Part shown: in pieces, positions 19,375 to 35,847 of the stretch
Numbering within the stretch: the stretch's first letter is position 1
Layout: each line of letters begins with the position of its first letter
Assembly: GCA_014360825.1 (NCBI GenBank)
Contig: JACIWT010000015.1
Coordinates: 1 to 53,734, forward strand
Direction of reading: 5' to 3'
Length of the DNA stretch: 53,734 nucleotides
DNA from: Chloroflexota bacterium
Lineage (GTDB): Bacteria; Chloroflexota; Anaerolineae; UBA2200; JACIWT01
Translations under genes and position numbers: made by a program
The notes under the pieces: generated by a model
Database searches by the model: none
What the model was told of the DNA's origin: nothing
Seen by the model: only the letters and a program-made list of their open reading frames with translations

Positions 19375-19787
19375 TCGCCACCTTGCAGGCAGTGAGAATG
19401 ATCGCCACCGCAATGGCCACTATCTCCTTCGGACTGGCCGGGTTAACGGGGCTCGTTTACATCATGCAAATAACATGGAGGCAATCCCCCCTCTTCCCCA
19501 AGGTGCCGCCGGCAGAACGATTAGACAGATGGATGGAGCAGGGGCTTGCCTTTGGGATGCCCTGGCTAACACTGAGCATGGTCTCGGCTATCGGGGAAGG
19601 ATGGCTATCCACCGGTCGGGTGTGGCCAGGCGATCCACAAACTTCATCTCTCCTGGCGCTCTGGCTTTACTACTCAGCGTTACTCAGTGGTCGTTTACGG
19701 CTGAACTGGGCGGGAGTAGGACCCGCCTGGATGACACTGGTGGGGGCAGTCAGCGCCGCGCTTGCGCTGGCAGTTTCTCTGTCATAG
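19371..19787 (+). CDS. Half-size CcsA/ResC-like haem-handling membrane protein
   Basis: 138 residues, about half or less of normal CcsA. Start ATG 19371 overlaps the resB stop; the longer frame from 19134 reads through resB in another frame and is rejected. Four hydrophobic segments (about 10-30, 58-75, 90-108, 115-137). The core GMPWLTLSMVSAIGEGWLS followed by GRVWPGDPQTSSLLALWLYY matches the CcsA C-terminal pattern with GRYWSWDPKETW, but the second Trp, Lys-Glu and last Trp of the WWD signature are lost. The gene pair with resB supports a role in cytochrome c maturation; how it would bind haem is unclear. Confidence 0.62.
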   Translation: MIATLQAVRMIATAMATISFGLAGLTGLVYIMQITWRQSPLFPKVPPAERLDRWMEQGLAFGMPWLTLSMVSAIGEGWLSTGRVWPGDPQTSSLLALWLYYSALLSGRLRLNWAGVGPAWMTLVGAVSAALALAVSLS

Positions 19788-28278: not shown

Positions 28279-29026
28279 TCGCAAATCGCTATACATCCTG
28301 GGCGTCCGAGTAGATGATGTTACATACAACGAAGCAGTAGTAGAAATAGACTGTTTCGTGCGGAAAAGGACCCCACACCAGATCGTCACCGTTAACCCGG
28401 AGTTCATCATCGCCGCTCGCCGCGATGTCGAATTCCGCCACATTATTAACCATGCGGCGCTTTCTCTGCCGGATGGTGCGGGCCTGCTTTGGGCATCCAG
28501 GTTACTGGGACATCCGCTGCGCGAACGTGTGACTGGTGTAGACATGTTACAACACCTGGCAGATTTGGCAACCCAGCGAGGATATGCTATATTCCTTCTG
28601 GGCGCAGCACCGGGTGTGGCGGCAGAGGCTGCACGTCGGCTGGCAGAACGCTTTCCAAGACTCATGATAGCCGGCACACACGTGGGTTCTCCCGAGCCGA
28701 CAGAAGAACCTGAAATAATCGAAATCGTGCGGTGTGCCGCGCCGGATATGCTTTTTGTAGCCTACGGCGCGCCTAAACAAGATAAGTGGATCGCGCGTAA
28801 TTTGGATCGCTTGGGCGTACCTGTAGCGATGGGCGTCGGCGGAGCGTTCGATTTTATCTCCGGTAGAGCGCAACGGGCGCCAATGTGGATGCGCCGCGCC
28901 GGACTAGAATGGCTGCATCGGCTTTATCGAGAGCCATGGCGTTGGCGAAGGATGCTCGCCCTACCCGCTTTCGCGTGGCTTGTCATCACGGAGAGGATAG
29001 GCCTCGCGCTGAGGAGGGGAAGATGA
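28271..29026 (+). CDS. WecG/TagA/CpsF-family glycosyltransferase (GT26)
   Basis: 251 residues. Family motifs: TVNPEFIIAARRD, SLPDGAGLLWASRLLG, ERVTGVDML, FLLGAAPGVAAEAARRL, and MLFVAYGAPKQDKWIARN with GVGGAFDFISGRAQRAP. These enzymes transfer an N-acetyl-mannosaminuronic or mannosamine residue to a polyprenyl-linked sugar, early in wall or surface polymer assembly. It overlaps GT9 by eight bases and the DUF2207-CHSA gene by four (ATGA), so the repeat protein is translationally coupled to a glycan gene. Confidence 0.92.
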   Translation: MADRKSLYILGVRVDDVTYNEAVVEIDCFVRKRTPHQIVTVNPEFIIAARRDVEFRHIINHAALSLPDGAGLLWASRLLGHPLRERVTGVDMLQHLADLATQRGYAIFLLGAAPGVAAEAARRLAERFPRLMIAGTHVGSPEPTEEPEIIEIVRCAAPDMLFVAYGAPKQDKWIARNLDRLGVPVAMGVGGAFDFISGRAQRAPMWMRRAGLEWLHRLYREPWRWRRMLALPAFAWLVITERIGLALRRGR

Positions 29027-30789
29027 AGAAAACGGCTCTTATTTTGGTTGTGATAGTCGGTTTGCTGGCAGCTGGGTTAGTGCCCGTGCACGCCCAAACC
29101 CCGGTCACGATAAATAAATCCGAATCCTACGTCCGGGTATTAAGTGACGGGCGTTTAGGTATCACCTATAGCCTAGTCTTCACGGAAATGGAGGATGGTC
29201 GAAACGGAATACGCGAGATCGGCCCCTTTGCTGAGCCCCACACAATCTATGAATCTCGCGGGGATGGTCCCGATGGACCGTTCAGTGTCACACTCAGCCC
29301 GTTGTCCAAAGCAGGCACTTACACAGCACAATTTGACAAGCCCACCCGACGCGGAGGGCAGTACACCATTACTATTTCTTATAGCGTAGACCGGACGGTT
29401 TTTGAGCCCACTACTGTGAACGGCAAGGATTACTGGGCCTTGGGTTGGGCTCCTTTCCAATGGGCGTTGCCCATTGAGAGGTTGATAGTGCAGTTTATCC
29501 TCCCGATCGAAATCTCCTCGGATATCCAAACGCCCGAACAAGTAACTGAGGCTGTAGTGGATGCTACCGGCTTGGTGGTCACAGCCGATGCAGATCATTT
29601 CGACCGTTGGGAGTACTTCCCAACACCCGACGAAGCCACGGGCAAGACCTGGCTGTCCATTTATGTCGAGAAAAGAAACGCCCCTGAGGCTTACGTTTTT
29701 CGGCCCGCGTTCTACGTACCCGCTTCGGCGATCGTTGCTCCTCGGCAAACTCCCATTTTGGGTCCTACTAAGGCGCCTTCTGGTCTCCCAACGACTACGC
29801 CACTGCCTTTCTGGGGAGGTCTGAGCCCTCTGGCGCTTCTCTTACTCTGCGGGGTTACTGTGAGTGTGTTGCTGGTGGTGATCGCATTGGTGGTAGTAAT
29901 GTTGCGACGGCGACGCAAGCCAAAGGTCTATGAGCCGCCGGAGATCGAGATCGAAACCTTCGAGATGCCGGGCGTGGTTCCCGACCTAAATGCCATCGAG
30001 GCCGCTTTTTATATGGGCAATTCTGCCAAGACTATCACGCTCATCGTCATGGGTTTGGTGCAGCGCGGTGTGCTGACGGTTATTAATCGCAATCCGCTGC
30101 AGTTAGAAGTTACTAACCCCGATTTGCCTATGAGTGCCTACGAAAGGGCATTGGTGGATGCTATCCTGTACGATGGCACCATTGACCAGGAGAAAATACC
30201 GAGCATCCTCTCCGCAGTAGCAGCAGAACTGCAGCCCAAGATGTGGAACGCCGACCCCGAGGCCACGAGAAAGACCTATCAACGAAAGACTGAAGAAGCC
30301 TGGCAAGAATATGAGCAGGAGCGCAAAACCGTGGTCAAACCCAGGCCGGCCTGGGAGTGGTGGGAACGACCTTATGCACCTTGGGTGATTGTGAGTGAGC
30401 GCTATCAGCCGGTAGCGGCAGAACCATCGGAGTTCGGTAAGGGTCTGCGCGAAGTGGTGTCGCCAGTAGCCCAGGCCGCTGAGCAGATTGTGTCGCCCAT
30501 CGAAAGCCTGGCCGGGGATATTACACGCGGGGTTGAGCGTGTGCTGACCGAGACCGCATCGCGCATCGAGGGGGCAGCGGCACGGCTCACTGGCCGCTCC
30601 GCAGAGGGCATGGCAGGATACGACGCCTGCCATTCCGCATGCCACTCGGCTTGTCACAGCGCCTGCGTCCACGATGCCTGCCACTCCGCTTGCGTCCACG
30701 ATGCCTGCCACAGCGCCTGTCATTCAGCCTGTGTGTGCCACTCGGCGTGCCATTCGGCCTGCCACAGCGCATGTGTAAGCCGGTTTTAG
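29023..30789 (+). CDS. DUF2207 membrane protein with C-terminal Cys-His-Ser-Ala repeat tail
   Basis: 588 residues from ATG 29023 (ATGA overlap with the GT26 gene, GAGGAGGGGA upstream). Signal peptide at 1-23 ending VHA, a DUF2207 extracytoplasmic domain (about 25-260), one membrane helix (about 267-293) followed by RRRRK, then a cytoplasmic region (295-533) with NAIEAAFYMGNSAKTITLIVMGLVQRGVL. From residue 534 the tail is Cys-His-Ser-Ala repeats: nine CHSA units in four blocks, broken by two VHD spacers and one V, 13 Cys and 11 His, ending VSRF. Ordinary DUF2207 proteins, such as the one at 36592-38442, end in Gly-rich tails. By the positive-inside rule the tail faces the cytoplasm. The next gene is a radical SAM/SPASM enzyme, so the tail is probably a modification target. 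Confidence 0.88.
   Translation: MKKTALILVVIVGLLAAGLVPVHAQTPVTINKSESYVRVLSDGRLGITYSLVFTEMEDGRNGIREIGPFAEPHTIYESRGDGPDGPFSVTLSPLSKAGTYTAQFDKPTRRGGQYTITISYSVDRTVFEPTTVNGKDYWALGWAPFQWALPIERLIVQFILPIEISSDIQTPEQVTEAVVDATGLVVTADADHFDRWEYFPTPDEATGKTWLSIYVEKRNAPEAYVFRPAFYVPASAIVAPRQTPILGPTKAPSGLPTTTPLPFWGGLSPLALLLLCGVTVSVLLVVIALVVVMLRRRRKPKVYEPPEIEIETFEMPGVVPDLNAIEAAFYMGNSAKTITLIVMGLVQRGVLTVINRNPLQLEVTNPDLPMSAYERALVDAILYDGTIDQEKIPSILSAVAAELQPKMWNADPEATRKTYQRKTEEAWQEYEQERKTVVKPRPAWEWWERPYAPWVIVSERYQPVAAEPSEFGKGLREVVSPVAQAAEQIVSPIESLAGDITRGVERVLTETASRIEGAAARLTGRSAEGMAGYDACHSACHSACHSACVHDACHSACVHDACHSACHSACVCHSACHSACHSACVSRF
30622..30786 (+). repeat. Coding repeat: Cys-His-Ser-Ala array in four blocks
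   Basis: The last 55 codons of the DUF2207 gene. Blocks hold 3, 1, 2 and 3 CHSA units, each closed by a Cys, with cysteines every fourth residue. Serine is written with TCC, TCG, TCA and AGC in different units, and Cys, His and Ala codons also vary. Selection therefore acts on the peptide, and this is not a recent DNA expansion. Only one 21-base segment (30664-30684 and 30691-30711) is exactly duplicated. Confidence 0.95.
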
Positions 30790-30792
30790 ACC

Positions 30793-32205
30793 ATGATGCC
30801 CGACCTACAGTCTTTTGCCGAAGAACTCGTTTCTCAGACGAGAGATTACATCTATATACGCTCGGAAGATGGGCTGATCATCCTGCGCCCGAACCGTGTC
30901 CATTACCTGAATGCAACAGCAAAGGCCATGCTCTCACGGCTTTACACAGGGGATGTGCCAGACGTTGAGGCCACCGTGCGCGAGATAGCCGCCGAATATG
31001 AGGTAGACGAGGCGCGGGTACGCGAGGATCTGTATCAGTTGCTCGTTGGCATAGCCGCATTGCTCCGAGATGATGTGTGCGGAGCACCTGCTGTCCGGAG
31101 TACCACCTTTGGCAGCCATCGCCGAGATCTGCCGGTCCTTTCCGAGGTGGCATTGACCTATCGTTGCCAGAATCACTGCGTCTTTTGCTATGCCGATTCG
31201 CCGGCTCGTGGGTCGACTGTGAGCGAGATGACAACGGACCAGGTAAAACTGGTGATTGACCGCATCTTTGACGAGGCCCACTGCCCAACGGTCTCCTTCA
31301 CCGGCGGTGAGCCTACGTTGCGCGCCGATTTGCCAGAGCTGGTCCGTTACGCGAAAGCCAAAGGAATGCGCGTCAACCTCATCACCAATGGGCTACGCTG
31401 CTCCCAACCGGCGTATGTGGCAGCCTTGGCTGAGGCGGGGTTGGATTCCGCCCAGGTCAGCCTAGAAGGCGGCAGCGCCGAAATACACGATGCTGTAGTG
31501 CGCCACCCAGGTGCTTTCGAAAAGACAACGCGGGCGGTGAAGGAACTGCGAGCAGCAGGCATACATACTCATACCAACACCACCATCTGCGGCGGTAACC
31601 GTAACCACCTGCTCGAACTCGTGGATTACATAGCCGAAGAGCTGAGATCGGAATATTTTTCTATGAACATGGTCATTCAGACGGGCACAGCACTGGGACA
31701 CCCTGAGGAGGAGATCTCCTACCGAGAGATTGGCCCCATTATCGAGATGGTCCAGACCCACGCTCGCAAAAAAGGGGTCCGTTTTGTCTGGTACTCTCCC
31801 CTGCCCTACTGCATATTCAACCCCATAGCCCATGGGCTGGGCTCCAAATCCTGTGCAGCAGTGGATGGACTGCTTTCAGTGAGCCCGAGTGGGGAAGTGC
31901 TACCCTGCTCTAGTTTCGAGCGAGGCATTGGCAGCCTGCTTCGCAATAGTTTCGCTGAGGTATGGTTCAGCCCGACGGCACTGTACTGGCGACGGAAGGA
32001 ATTCTTACCGCCGGTGTGCCAGAATTGCGAACTCAAGACTATTTGCTGCGGTGCATGTCCCCTCTACTGGGACCAGCGCGGCAACTTCGACGAGCTGGCC
32101 AATGTCGCTACACCTGCTCCGACCTGGCGATCTCTGCTGTGGCAAGTTAAGCGAAGGTGGTGGGGCCGCACGCAGGGCGTTGGCCTGTCAACCCAAAGAA
32201 AGTAG
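30793..32205 (+). CDS. Radical SAM/SPASM maturase with PqqD-like N-terminal domain
   Basis: 470 residues, starting 3 bases after the repeat protein stop and probably coupled to it; ATG 30796 is an alternative start. Residues 18-95 look like a PqqD/RRE winged helix (LIILRPNRVHYLNATAKAML, then helices to LLVGIAALL), the usual precursor-peptide binding domain of RiPP enzymes. The radical SAM core has Cys125, Cys129 and Cys132 (CQNHCVFC) and SFTGGEPTLR. The C-terminal SPASM domain shows SGEVLPC and then CQNCELKTICCGAC, the CX2CX5CX3C pattern for auxiliary iron-sulfur clusters. Such enzymes make thioether or carbon-carbon crosslinks in ribosomal peptides; here the likely substrate is the CHSA tail. 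Confidence 0.9.
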   Translation: MMPDLQSFAEELVSQTRDYIYIRSEDGLIILRPNRVHYLNATAKAMLSRLYTGDVPDVEATVREIAAEYEVDEARVREDLYQLLVGIAALLRDDVCGAPAVRSTTFGSHRRDLPVLSEVALTYRCQNHCVFCYADSPARGSTVSEMTTDQVKLVIDRIFDEAHCPTVSFTGGEPTLRADLPELVRYAKAKGMRVNLITNGLRCSQPAYVAALAEAGLDSAQVSLEGGSAEIHDAVVRHPGAFEKTTRAVKELRAAGIHTHTNTTICGGNRNHLLELVDYIAEELRSEYFSMNMVIQTGTALGHPEEEISYREIGPIIEMVQTHARKKGVRFVWYSPLPYCIFNPIAHGLGSKSCAAVDGLLSVSPSGEVLPCSSFERGIGSLLRNSFAEVWFSPTALYWRRKEFLPPVCQNCELKTICCGACPLYWDQRGNFDELANVATPAPTWRSLLWQVKRRWWGRTQGVGLSTQRK

Positions 32206-32220
32206 GAAGGATGCGACAGC

Positions 32221-33432
32221 ATGGGTGAGAAAATGAACCTGGGGCAGTTCTACAATTTTCTGCGCACAGCGCGCCGTCGCATCGCCGACGTGTATCGCGA
32301 GATCGAGGAAGTGCAATATCAATTCAATGATCTCTACGCTTCGGTAATGCAAAATTGGCAGGAACAAGCAAGCGCTTGCTTGACAATACTGCAACAGCAG
32401 ATCGAAAAAAAGTCATTGCCGCCCTCGCTGGCAGCCCAACTCGAGGGGCGCCTAAAAGAGGAACGGGAGAAATTCGACAAAGAGGTCGCTGATCTATGCC
32501 AGCGGGTGGCTGCCCAGCGGGATACAGCACACGCGGCACTCATGAACGCTCAAGACCAGATCGCGGCTTTGCGCAAATCCAATCCGGAACTGAATGCACG
32601 CGAAGAGGAATTGAAAGCCCGGCGCGTATCGCTGGAGACAGAATTGGCTGCCATCCAAAACAACATCAACCGATTGAACTCATTTCCAGTTGGTTGGATC
32701 CGAAATGCAGGGGCCATTCGCCAGTTGCGACAACAACACGCTGCGCTGCAAAAGAATTTAGAGGGCGTGATCACCGAATTGCGTGCTGTACGCCAGGAAT
32801 GGCAGGAGCGCAAAATGGAAGCGGAGCGGCAACAAGCACAACTGAAGGCCGATTGGCAGGCCGCTAGTATTGAGGCGGCCCAACTTCAGGCCCAATTGGA
32901 TGCCCTCGTTGCCAATCAGGAAGCCATTGTCCTACGCCGGGCAGCAGAAGCGCTGCTGGTCGAGATGAAGGAGGTTCCGCCAGATGCCGGTGAACTATCA
33001 GAACCTCTGCAAAAACTGGTGGAACTGAATACATCCCGCGAAGGCTATCAACGTGGTCTAACCAGCGTAGCGGAAGTTCTAGGCTTGCTCAAAGGCTTAG
33101 GCGAGGGAATGGACCGCTTTATCACCAGCGTTAGCACGGTTTTCGAAGAGCAGCGCCGCTATCAGCTCCCAGATCTGGAGGTGGACATATCCAAGACAGT
33201 GGCAGATTTTCACAACATGTGGGGGGAATTCCAGAGCAAGGTAAAAGATGAGAAGTACTTGGGAGCACGCCCGTTAGAATTCAGCGAGCGCATCCACTAT
33301 TTCATAAAAGCCAAATTAACGGAAGAGACTATCGAACGAATGTTTGAGGACCTGGGTGCATCGCTGAACGCAGCGACGAAGGCATGGGACTCAAAGGATC
33401 TTACAGGACGGAGGAAGAAACGCGGACGATGA
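32221..33432 (+). CDS. Long coiled-coil protein of unknown function
   Basis: 403 residues, no signal peptide or membrane segment. Residues about 15-240 are almost continuous heptad-like helix, rich in Gln, Glu, Ala and Arg, with a break around NSFPVGWIRNAG (about 155-166). The C-terminal 120 residues are mixed and end basic (TGRRKKRGR). The only Cys are two isolated ones. I do not recognise a family. It lies 15 bases after the radical SAM gene and overlaps the next gene by four, so it belongs to this transcription unit and may scaffold the DUF2207 protein or its maturase; that is inference. Confidence 0.75.
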   Translation: MGEKMNLGQFYNFLRTARRRIADVYREIEEVQYQFNDLYASVMQNWQEQASACLTILQQQIEKKSLPPSLAAQLEGRLKEEREKFDKEVADLCQRVAAQRDTAHAALMNAQDQIAALRKSNPELNAREEELKARRVSLETELAAIQNNINRLNSFPVGWIRNAGAIRQLRQQHAALQKNLEGVITELRAVRQEWQERKMEAERQQAQLKADWQAASIEAAQLQAQLDALVANQEAIVLRRAAEALLVEMKEVPPDAGELSEPLQKLVELNTSREGYQRGLTSVAEVLGLLKGLGEGMDRFITSVSTVFEEQRRYQLPDLEVDISKTVADFHNMWGEFQSKVKDEKYLGARPLEFSERIHYFIKAKLTEETIERMFEDLGASLNAATKAWDSKDLTGRRKKRGR

Positions 33433-33920
33433 ACAAAATGCTCGCGATAATAGCCGTGGTCCTAGCCATTTTCTGCTTGATCCTCGGCATCATTTTCTTG
33501 ATCGCCGCCATCGACGCAACTAGCCGCATCCTAACAAGTGGTGCGTTTCTCATCACGGCTGGGCTGCTTCTGGCCTATGGCTTATCGACTCTGCGACGCA
33601 TTGCCGAGACCAGCCCCGAACATTTAGAGACAGGCGCGGTGGAATTGGCCAAGCAGTTAGAAGGCGAGGTTACTGTCGAACAACTACAAGTGGCCTATTC
33701 TATCCCGGCCGCCTTGGCAAAACAGACCCTGGAACGACTCCGAGCGAAGGGCCAATGCCAATTGGAACAGCGGGGTGATTACGCTGTCTATTTGTTCAAA
33801 AGTGTTTTGCCAGCCAAAGCGGTCAAGCGATGTCCCTACTGCGGCAGCGAATTCGCGGTGCGCAGTGCGGTGCGAAAGTGCCCCAATTGCGGTGCTGCAT
33901 TGGAGATCACGAAAGAATAG
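33429..33920 (+). CDS. Small membrane protein with winged-helix-like and zinc-ribbon parts
   Basis: 163 residues from ATG 33429 (ATGA overlap). Two hydrophobic helices (about 4-27 and 35-52) form a hairpin, followed by a helical region that looks like a winged helix (about 78-122, VTVEQLQVAYSIPAALAKQTLERLRAKGQ). A zinc ribbon with CPYCGSEF and CPNCGAAL (about 132-158) ends the protein. No named family recognised. It may sense or present something at the membrane, and its metal site would be cytoplasmic like the CHSA tail. Fourth gene of the candidate system. Confidence 0.75.
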   Translation: MNKMLAIIAVVLAIFCLILGIIFLIAAIDATSRILTSGAFLITAGLLLAYGLSTLRRIAETSPEHLETGAVELAKQLEGEVTVEQLQVAYSIPAALAKQTLERLRAKGQCQLEQRGDYAVYLFKSVLPAKAVKRCPYCGSEFAVRSAVRKCPNCGAALEITKE

Positions 33921-33942
33921 ACTGTCCCAGACGCAGAGATTG

Positions 33943-35847
33943 ATGAAAAGAATAGCCCTCTTTGCGGGCGTATATGTTGTTATAACAGCAGTATGCCAGA
34001 TTAGTTGCAGATTACATCCACTGTCCCCTATCCAACCCCAGCGTTCCACGCCGACGCCTCAGCCTCTCCTCGAGAGCCCAATGCGAGATTTGCATGATGT
34101 TGCCCGCCGCCTGGACCGCGTGGACGGTGGGGCTCTTGCCTCAAGATCGGCGTCTCGCATCTACAGAGTAGGTGATCACGAGTTATTTACCGTGATGGAT
34201 CTCGACTCAACTGGTGTCTTCACGATCACCGCAGAACTGCAGGCGATCGGCGAGCACATTTATTTGTGGGTGCAAGATGACCTGGCAACCTTGCCTAACG
34301 ACGTCCAACAGGCAGTGGAGTTCTTCGATGAACACATTTATCCCACAGATCACTACTACTTTGGTTGGGAACCAAACCCCGGCCTGGACGAAGATCCGCG
34401 TATTCATGTGCTGTGCGCCGACTTATCCGGGGCTTCGGGTTACTTTTACAGCGCTAACCAGTATTTACGTGCTGTCAATCCATACAGCAACGAACGGGAA
34501 ATGCTCTATATCAACATCCAGGGCCGCTCGCCGGGCAGCGATGCATTCAACGCCACGCTGGCACATGAATTTCAACATCTGATTCACTGGGCCCAGGATG
34601 CGAATGAAGATGCCTGGGTGAACGAAGGTTGCTCCGAATTGGCCATACAACTCAATGGCCTGCCCACAAGTGGACATGAGCGTGAATTTGCTCGGCAATC
34701 AGATACTCAACTTAACGCCTGGGGCACAGTAGAGAGCACAGCACTGCCACATTATGGAGCATCGTACCTTTTCATGCGCTACTTTGCTCGCCGCTTTGGG
34801 CCAGATGCAATACGCCTCCTCGTGGCACGGCCCGAAAACGGCATCGCCGGGTTCAACGCAGTGCTCTCCGAGTTGGGAACAGGCCTGATTTTCGAAGATG
34901 TATTCGCCGATTGGGTCATCGCCAACTGGCTTGATGACGCAACGCTGGCCAATGGTGCCTACGGCTATGGCGAACCGCTTGGGATAACCCTGGAGCCTTC
35001 AGCGGTCATTAGGGACTATCCCAATGAGGGCACAGGCACAGTACACCAGTACGCTGCCGATTACATTGTGCTGCAGGGCATCACCAGCCCCCTGGAGATC
35101 GAATTCCAAGGCCAGACTACAGCGAAATTGATCCCGACTGAGGCTCCCAGTGGACGGTACCTGTGGTGGTCTAACCGAGGTGACGCAATCGACAGTACGC
35201 TGACGCGGGCTTTTGATCTCACAAGCCTGACCACGGCGACCTTAGAATTCTCGATGTGGTATGACATCGAAGCAGGGTGGGATTACGCCTACGTCGAGGT
35301 TTCAACCGATGGAGGCAACCGGTGGAATGTACTAACGGGGACACACACAACCATGTGGAACCCCGTCGGCAATAGTTTCGGCCCGGGCTATACCGGCACA
35401 TCCGGCCGCGACTTTGATGCATGGGATAAGCCTGCCTCGGCAAGATGGGTGCAGGAGCGAATAGATCTGACACCCTATGCAGGGAAACAAGTGCTCATCC
35501 GCTTCGAGTATATCACCGATGACCAAGTAAATGGCCATGGCTTTTGCTTAGATGACATCCGGATTCCGGAATTGGGCTACAGGGATGACGTGGAGGATGA
35601 GAACAGCGACTGGATCGCTCAAGGATTCATGCGCACCGACAACACTGTGCCCCAGCGTTATCTAGTACAGGTCGTTATACCTGGTCTTAAGATGCCGGTA
35701 CAACGGGTATGGGCAGAGAATGGACTGGCCCATCTAGCACTTGAGGGACCAGAATCGAGTGTGCAAGAAGCAGTATTGGTTATATCAGCCCTGGCCCCGT
35801 TCACAGTGGAGTCAGCGCCTTACTGCTATTCTGTGCAGAGGCGCTGA
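33943..35847 (+). CDS. Secreted HExxH metalloprotease, M6/immune-inhibitor-A-like
   Basis: 634 residues from ATG 33943; the longer frame runs through the previous gene. An N-terminal hydrophobic helix (about 4-20) with Cys nearby may be a signal or lipoprotein anchor, followed by a Pro/Thr spacer. The zinc site is LAHEFQHLIHW (His208, Glu209, His212) with downstream WVNEGCSE giving a probable third ligand (Glu228). The C-terminal half has a beta-sandwich like that of immune-inhibitor-A peptidases (LEFSMWYDIEAGWDYAYVEVSTDGG, GKQVLIRFEYITDD). It follows the zinc-ribbon gene by 22 bases and ends at a strong terminator. It could process surface proteins, including the DUF2207 ectodomain, but that link is only positional. 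Confidence 0.82.
   Translation: MKRIALFAGVYVVITAVCQISCRLHPLSPIQPQRSTPTPQPLLESPMRDLHDVARRLDRVDGGALASRSASRIYRVGDHELFTVMDLDSTGVFTITAELQAIGEHIYLWVQDDLATLPNDVQQAVEFFDEHIYPTDHYYFGWEPNPGLDEDPRIHVLCADLSGASGYFYSANQYLRAVNPYSNEREMLYINIQGRSPGSDAFNATLAHEFQHLIHWAQDANEDAWVNEGCSELAIQLNGLPTSGHEREFARQSDTQLNAWGTVESTALPHYGASYLFMRYFARRFGPDAIRLLVARPENGIAGFNAVLSELGTGLIFEDVFADWVIANWLDDATLANGAYGYGEPLGITLEPSAVIRDYPNEGTGTVHQYAADYIVLQGITSPLEIEFQGQTTAKLIPTEAPSGRYLWWSNRGDAIDSTLTRAFDLTSLTTATLEFSMWYDIEAGWDYAYVEVSTDGGNRWNVLTGTHTTMWNPVGNSFGPGYTGTSGRDFDAWDKPASARWVQERIDLTPYAGKQVLIRFEYITDDQVNGHGFCLDDIRIPELGYRDDVEDENSDWIAQGFMRTDNTVPQRYLVQVVIPGLKMPVQRVWAENGLAHLALEGPESSVQEAVLVISALAPFTVESAPYCYSVQRR

Follow-up and report, generated by a model that had tools for sequence, protein, structure and literature searches.

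The window, by which we mean the whole 53,734-nucleotide stretch of DNA analyzed here, contains four successive genes on the forward strand. The first (29023..30789, +) encodes a membrane protein of 588 amino acids with a repetitive C-terminal tail, delineated from the list of open reading frames, a PF09972 match, hydropathy and an AlphaFold model. Its start was taken as the ATG at 29023 (MKKTALIL...), which gives an overlap with the end of the WecG/TagA gene upstream. From the N-terminus the order is a hydrophobic signal-peptide-like segment, a DUF2207-type beta domain, a transmembrane (TM) helix, a winged-helix-like domain, a long helix and the tail. The score of 25.2 bits against DUF2207 (PF09972; gathering cut-off 24.4) places it in that family, while none of ten distant tail proteins passed the cut-off, the best reaching 17.2 bits. 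A search of NCBIfam gave nothing over cut-off for this protein or for the enzyme encoded next to it. The outer beta domain, the only part covered by our fold search (29095-29727, residues 25-235), has a model resembling OST1/ribophorin I (Z 16.1 over 187 residues, rmsd 2.9). The N-domains of M1 aminopeptidases match it with Z about 13, and Foldseek ranked aminopeptidases at the top; a common fold does not show function.

The central TM helix is placed at residues 269-296 (29827..29910, +) by the AlphaFold helix and the hydropathy, and is followed by RRRRKPK. The hydropathy analysis gives a net charge of +5 on its C-terminal side, and the AlphaFold model has the winged-helix-like domain at approximately residues 324-380 and the long helix at 481-523. 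Many full-length relatives share the hydropathy pattern, some with an extra weak hydrophobic stretch or with one missing at the threshold. Given the +5 charge after the TM helix, the positive-inside rule predicts that the tail is in the cytoplasm, alongside the enzyme. We consider this orientation likely; it comes from the hydropathy and the AlphaFold model rather than from a dedicated topology predictor.

The tail (30622..30786, +) has the sequence DA-C-(HSAC)3-V-(HDAC HSAC)-V-(HDAC HSAC HSAC)-V-C-(HSAC)3-V-SRF. A preliminary description made from the letters alone had placed a Cys- and His-rich array at the end of the reading frame that stops at 30789, and this is where it lies. Its 55 residues include 13 Cys, 11 His and 11 H-x-A-C units. 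The codon table divides these units into four forward-strand blocks, namely (HSAC)3 at 30631..30666, HDAC HSAC at 30670..30693, HDAC HSAC HSAC at 30697..30732 and (HSAC)3 at 30739..30774. Each is closed by a Val codon, at 30667-30669, 30694-30696, 30733-30735 and 30775-30777 respectively, the last being followed by SRF. There are two extra Cys outside the units that orthologues may lack; that on the 5' side of block 4 (30736-30738, +) is missing from several of them. The units are read in the H-S/D-A-C register because in some orthologues the first extra Cys is missing, or VHSAC or VHDAC stands in place of VCHSAC. In this register the 11 units fall into blocks of 3-2-3-3 with Val closing each, so that the earlier reading of VHD as a spacer is incorrect. 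Nor is there an exact four-residue Cys period, as had been proposed, since the spacings are 4,4,4,5,4,5,4,4,2,4,4,4. The suggestion that Cys would lie on one helical face also lacks support. On an alpha helix the 13 Cys scatter (mean resultant 0.44), and AlphaFold confidence is low across the tail (pLDDT mostly <60).

The codon diversity noted previously is present throughout the array. The nine Ser of the units use four codons (TCC 2, TCG 3, TCA 1, AGC 3), and a tenth, within the terminal SRF, is AGC. The other residues vary likewise, with Cys as TGC 9/TGT 4, His as CAC 8/CAT 3 and Ala as GCC 7, GCA 2, GCT 2, GCG 1. The longest internal repeat is a single 21-mer, which occurs at 30664 and 30691, again as first described.

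Conservation of the tail was examined in a survey of the class, in which 38 of 396 genomes (that of the window included) carry the clade of the adjacent enzyme. The tail gene is readable beside the enzyme gene in 32 of these, which form the set of orthologues. The remaining six comprise five genomes whose enzyme lies at a contig edge and G059, where the tail is on a different contig. The 31 orthologues other than the window itself have tails that are 89-100% identical to the window tail, compared with 36-56% for the rest of the protein, yet only 27-56% of the tail codons are shared. The median pN/pS against the window is 0.12 for the tail and 0.49 for the rest of the protein. The NG86 method scores Ser switches between TCN and AGY as amino-acid steps, and pN for the tail is therefore too high. 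Such swaps of codon family occur at 144 of the 295 aligned Ser sites. The number of units is 11 in 30 of the 32 orthologous tails and 10 in the other two. Thus the proposal that the array is held at the level of the protein is borne out by the comparison of substitution rates and unit number that had been put forward as its check. The outcome that would have spoken against it, tails drifting while the enzyme is retained, was looked for and not seen, with 36 of the 38 enzyme-carrying genomes having the tail.

That the array exceeds chance is shown by these 32 Chloroflexota tails with differing codons, and not by a p-value for the array. Slippage or recent duplication is ruled out by codons that differ both inside the array and among orthologues. 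Constraint from an overlapping frame or at the DNA level is likewise ruled out, as the tail DNA differs while the protein is constant.

The second gene (30793..32205, +) encodes a 470-amino-acid radical SAM/SPASM enzyme with an N-terminal PqqD-like RRE, which is the predicted maturase of the tail. Three domains score over cut-off, PF05402 (32.3 bits), PF04055 (103) and PF13186 (33.3), and with the CxxxCxxC motif and the fold they place the protein among the RRE-radical SAM/SPASM peptide maturases. The AlphaFold model has a mean pLDDT of 95.1. Its best Foldseek match is SkfB (6efn, 22% identity), with SuiB, anSME, BlsE and CteB also found, and profile searches match SkfB (1.6e-33), PqqE, BlsE, SuiB, 8vpo (TigE) and CteB. 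In 78 enzymes associated with HSAC tails the CxxxCxxC cysteines are kept in all 78, as are the accessory cysteines 354, 372, 409, 412, 418 and 422, and C340 is present in 77. No conserved eighth accessory cysteine follows these seven in the 78 enzymes. Two full clusters would need one more ligand than this set provides. In PMC6231123, missing ligands are used as an argument for binding of the substrate thiol in AlbA-type sactisynthases. An extra SPASM-region cysteine is present in 11 of the 12 enzymes of a zinc-ribbon-linked sister clade that seems to lack a Cys tail.

The tail and the enzyme occur together across genomes. Members of the enzyme clade in the 38 class genomes are 53-73% identical to the window enzyme over the longest match. 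The (HxAC)3V pattern, searched in DNA, is found in 36 class genomes out of 396, every one of which carries the enzyme; the enzyme is present in two of the 360 genomes without a tail (G024 and G224), in both cases at a contig edge. Fisher's test gives p = 4e-49 for the pairing, a value uncorrected for kinship. In G059 the enzyme is well inside its own contig, and the tail is on another.

A scan of 84,980 species with the (HxAC)3V pattern returned at least 114 stretches. The matches listed partly repeat the class genomes, and two of them (L079 and L084) are from one genome. Among these, 80 titles cover Chloroflexota, Spirochaetota, Desulfobacterota, Aminicenantes, WOR-3 and Clostridia, and further Planctomycetota, Myxococcales, Elusimicrobia, Thorarchaeota, Heimdallarchaeota and Thermoproteota. 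The enzyme lies within the locus at 98 of the 114 tail loci listed and is partial at the locus end in five more. The genomes of the other 11 have it elsewhere in 10 cases; at the remaining locus (L179) the sequence stops only 152 bases beyond the tail. Where the enzyme is visible in Thorarchaeota loci among these matches (L076, L118 and L162) it is divergent and upstream; L162 is beyond the 80 listed titles, and its assignment comes from its tail. The pair is also carried by a cultured bacterium, Desulfobulbus alkaliphilus (L103). In all 114 matches listed the motif ends 3-5 residues before a stop codon. Tail and enzyme are very probably functionally linked. The spread of the pair over numerous bacterial phyla, and into some archaea, probably reflects a widespread, uncharacterized protein modification.

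We determined the grammar of the tail from 579 Cys-to-Cys units lying outside the scan pattern. The first position is His in 542, Phe in 18, Tyr in 18 and Val in one, the second is variable (Ser 456, Asp 82, and others), and the third is Ala in 554 and Gly in 25. In certain tails one site has Asn in place of Ala. The most frequent C-termini are VSGGAH, VSGGSH, VSGGAR and VSGGSR. Many of the tails from outside Chloroflexota among the matches listed are CHSA repeats without interruption.

Of 11 loci examined for sister enzymes with 32-37% identity, 10 (L044-L047 and L049-L054) have the enzyme after another DUF2207-like protein with a different kind of tail, ending (CA)n-G-CACACA-GGGR. These CACA tails, CACACAGCACACAGGGR, contain no aromatic residue. 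The exact pattern is present in 43 of the 396 class genomes, and all 43 are among the 105 genomes with a homologous enzyme. In each of six CACA loci checked the next gene encodes an enzyme-like protein without CxxxCxxC (L046:2817-3956, L050:1691-2851, L053:2794-3939, L047:5704-6852, L049:6535-7683 and L054:2756-3907). The L046 protein was scanned and has a PqqD match and a partial Radical_SAM match; from their sequences these partners are likely to be catalytically dead. In a tree of the enzymes, rooted on a single distant sequence, those linked to HSAC tails (n=78, support 0.94), to CACA tails (n=10, 0.72) and to zinc ribbons (n=12, 1.0) form separate clades. The type of tail thus tracks the clade of enzyme. 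This is our best evidence, and from it we infer that the tail is the substrate of the enzyme.

Members of the third clade (L203, L206-L208, L210, L211, L213, L214, L217, L219, L221) lie downstream of a small membrane protein whose conserved end resembles a zinc ribbon, ...CPYCGASYQIEEAPKW. In the loci examined these enzymes have no Cys-rich tail directly upstream; in the genome G056 a CACA tail is about 3.5 kb away, so that this clade may have a looser link to a tail.

We propose that the tail is a RiPP-like core, in which the RRE-radical SAM-SPASM enzyme installs a Cys-centered crosslink in each aromatic-x-Ala-Cys unit, and we hold this with moderate confidence. The core would be a permanent part of the C-terminus of a membrane-anchored protein. 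The enzyme would bind the tail protein at the tail or just ahead of it, and move along making an identical crosslink in each unit, most likely a thioether from the Cys sulfur to the unit Ala. The thioether is favored because Ala beside Cys is common to both types of tail, and because there is a precedent in RumC1, where Ala acts as a thioether acceptor (PMC6779426). For this particular bond we put the chances at about even. This would yield a string of small rings in the cytoplasm, beneath a single-TM protein that has a beta domain outside and a winged-helix-like domain inside.

Several observations count against crosslinking. The Gly found in place of Ala in 25 of 579 units, and the Asn at one site, do not conform. 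The precursors are about 500-900 amino acids long, quite different from normal RiPP precursors, and there is no sign of proteolytic release, of an exporter or of an immunity gene. The separate contigs of tail and enzyme in G059 count in the same direction. RRE-radical SAM-SPASM enzymes also yield C-C bonds, epimers and other products. A more general form of the proposal is that throughout prokaryotes one radical SAM clade converts the (HxAC)n C-terminus of a sensor-like membrane protein, by 7-11 identical crosslinks, into a cytoplasmic rod that stays stapled for life. The sister clade would do the same with (CA)n tails, aided by the enzyme-like partner lacking CxxxCxxC. We offer this version only tentatively.

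The preliminary description had proposed that the tail binds metal or an iron-sulfur cluster through Cys and His. The radical SAM step might then only condition the tail, for example by epimerizing or rigidifying it. The composition, 13 Cys and 11 His among 55 residues with H-x-x-C spacing throughout, is consistent with this. Moreover PMC12452194 connects Cys-rich C-termini of TIGR04222 proteins with MNIO enzymes, and reports that bufferins bind copper. Yet the genome has no MNIO gene (no PF05114 match, with Caulobacter and Deinobacterium controls positive), and a metal site does not need the strict Ala at position 3 (554 of 579). Replacement of His by Phe or Tyr in 36 of 579 units argues against His as a strict metal ligand, and the sister CACA tails have no His. 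We therefore regard metal binding as the purpose of the tail as unlikely. A further possibility is that the enzyme joins a ring carbon of His, Phe or Tyr to the residue two further on, as in the three-residue cyclophane motif, leaving the thiols free, for example for metal. This would account for an aromatic residue at position 1 in 578 of 579 units (H 542, F 18, Y 18), which is beyond the needs of a pure metal site. But Gly, which has no beta carbon, occupies position 3 in 25 units, and the CACA tails have no aromatic residue although their enzymes are 32-37% identical; such a product is improbable. Alternatively the target of the enzyme could be some other molecule, with the tail conserved for separate reasons. 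The sister clade found beside a small zinc-ribbon membrane protein, whose loci, where examined, showed no Cys-rich tail immediately upstream, is in keeping with that. Set against it are the 36/36 and 43/43 pairings with clade-specific types of tail, and the RRE carried by the enzyme, and we judge a separate target distinctly improbable. Attachment of c-type haem through CX3CH-like motifs (C-HSA-CH) can hardly be correct, for while C-x3-C-H recurs in the tail and the genome has matches to the cytochrome c assembly family PF01578, one of them at 19407-19769 of the window, the tail is predicted to be cytoplasmic, the motifs overlap every four residues, and the radical SAM partner and the CACA tails would be left unexplained.

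The crosslinked core that we favor has relatives among described systems. Among them are TIGR04222-MNIO systems, in which a membrane protein with a low-complexity, Cys-containing C-terminus is the proposed substrate of an adjoining RiPP-type enzyme (PMC12452194). The enzyme here is a radical SAM protein rather than an MNIO. Our tail is a strict HSAC repeat predicted to be cytoplasmic, whereas those of the MNIO systems are Gly/Ser-rich stretches with scattered Cys in the periplasm. The tail protein scores 34.2 bits against TIGR04222 (near_uncomplex), below the cut-off of 43, and distant relatives score 31.0, 21.1 and 13.5 bits.

Judging by the family name, the CXXX-repeat targets of TIGR04117 resemble the tail in having a Cys at each fourth residue and a radical SAM maturase. 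Their model covers 98 positions, whereas tail proteins are membrane proteins of 500-900 amino acids. The tail protein gave no match to it at E up to 0.1, the whole genome none at E up to 10, and ten relatives reached at best 15.5 bits against a cut-off of 50. In the ACGX system Ala-Cys repeats are processed with a radical SAM/SPASM enzyme. The name of its model, TIGR04340, indicates the same combination as our pair; the window enzyme scores 94.8 bits, below the cut-off of 400. The sactisynthases SkfB, CteB and RumMC share the RRE-radical SAM-Twitch/SPASM fold of the window enzyme, but act on short secreted peptides, where the presumed substrate here is a resident membrane protein. The classical RiPP arrangement, a short leader-core precursor that is cut and exported, does not apply, as the tails end long reading frames (588 amino acids in the window); among the matches listed, part of the shorter frames are open at the locus end.

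In summary of precedent, Cys-rich membrane tails have already been proposed as MNIO substrates (PMC12452194), and the family name TIGR04117 implies Cys-x3 repeats as radical SAM targets. A full-text literature search found no description of the present tail-enzyme pair, though an earlier mention in Haft and Basu 2011 or the RadicalSAM.org paper is possible; nothing on CXXX was found in PMC10352776. The near-invariance of the repeat from Chloroflexota to Thorarchaeota, and its pairing with a single clade of radical SAM enzymes, suggest a conserved role at the prokaryotic membrane that has apparently gone undescribed. Should the crosslinks prove real, radical SAM maturation would reach beyond short peptides to resident membrane proteins, and the natural variants HSAC, HDAC, YSAC, FSGC and CACA could be used to learn the rules of the enzyme. 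The system would also offer a way into the study of DUF2207, a domain whose function is unknown.

The third gene in this branch (32221..33432, +) encodes a coiled-coil protein of 403 amino acids. The fourth (33429..33920, +) encodes a small membrane protein with a C-terminal zinc ribbon (PF13248, 28.5 bits against a cut-off of 27); its start was taken inside the reading frame, at an ATG overlapping the previous stop. We surveyed 72 loci that include the enzyme plus 1.3 kb beyond. The coiled-coil gene is third in 16 and the zinc-ribbon gene fourth in 13. In 53 loci there is an alternative third gene for a membrane protein with about four TM helices by eye, for which neither Pfam nor NCBIfam has a family over cut-off. 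The divergent loci L076, L118 and L162 have neither third gene. The coiled-coil gene never occurs with its alternative, and this mutual exclusion suggests that they are two versions of one partner. The alternative protein (L117:3219-4202 (-), L131, L152, L154 and others) has a conserved C-terminal domain, VQGxSYPYxYVVLVA ... TTKxSGYHT. Our guess at function is that the tail, as a rigid and redox-stable element in the cytoplasm, could link the membrane protein with its coiled-coil or four-TM operon partner.

A known defense system was considered and rejected, as the PADLOC matches to the genes of the window were all generic ones, to radical SAM (viperin) and coiled-coil entries, and the tail proteins tried gave none. 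Elsewhere in the window, the PF01578 match at 19407-19769 is the second of two in the genome. Downstream of the operon, both here and in several relatives, is a reading frame (33775-35847 in the window) that scores 117.6 bits for an InhA-like MAM domain (cut-off 26.9) and has in addition a metalloprotease match below cut-off.
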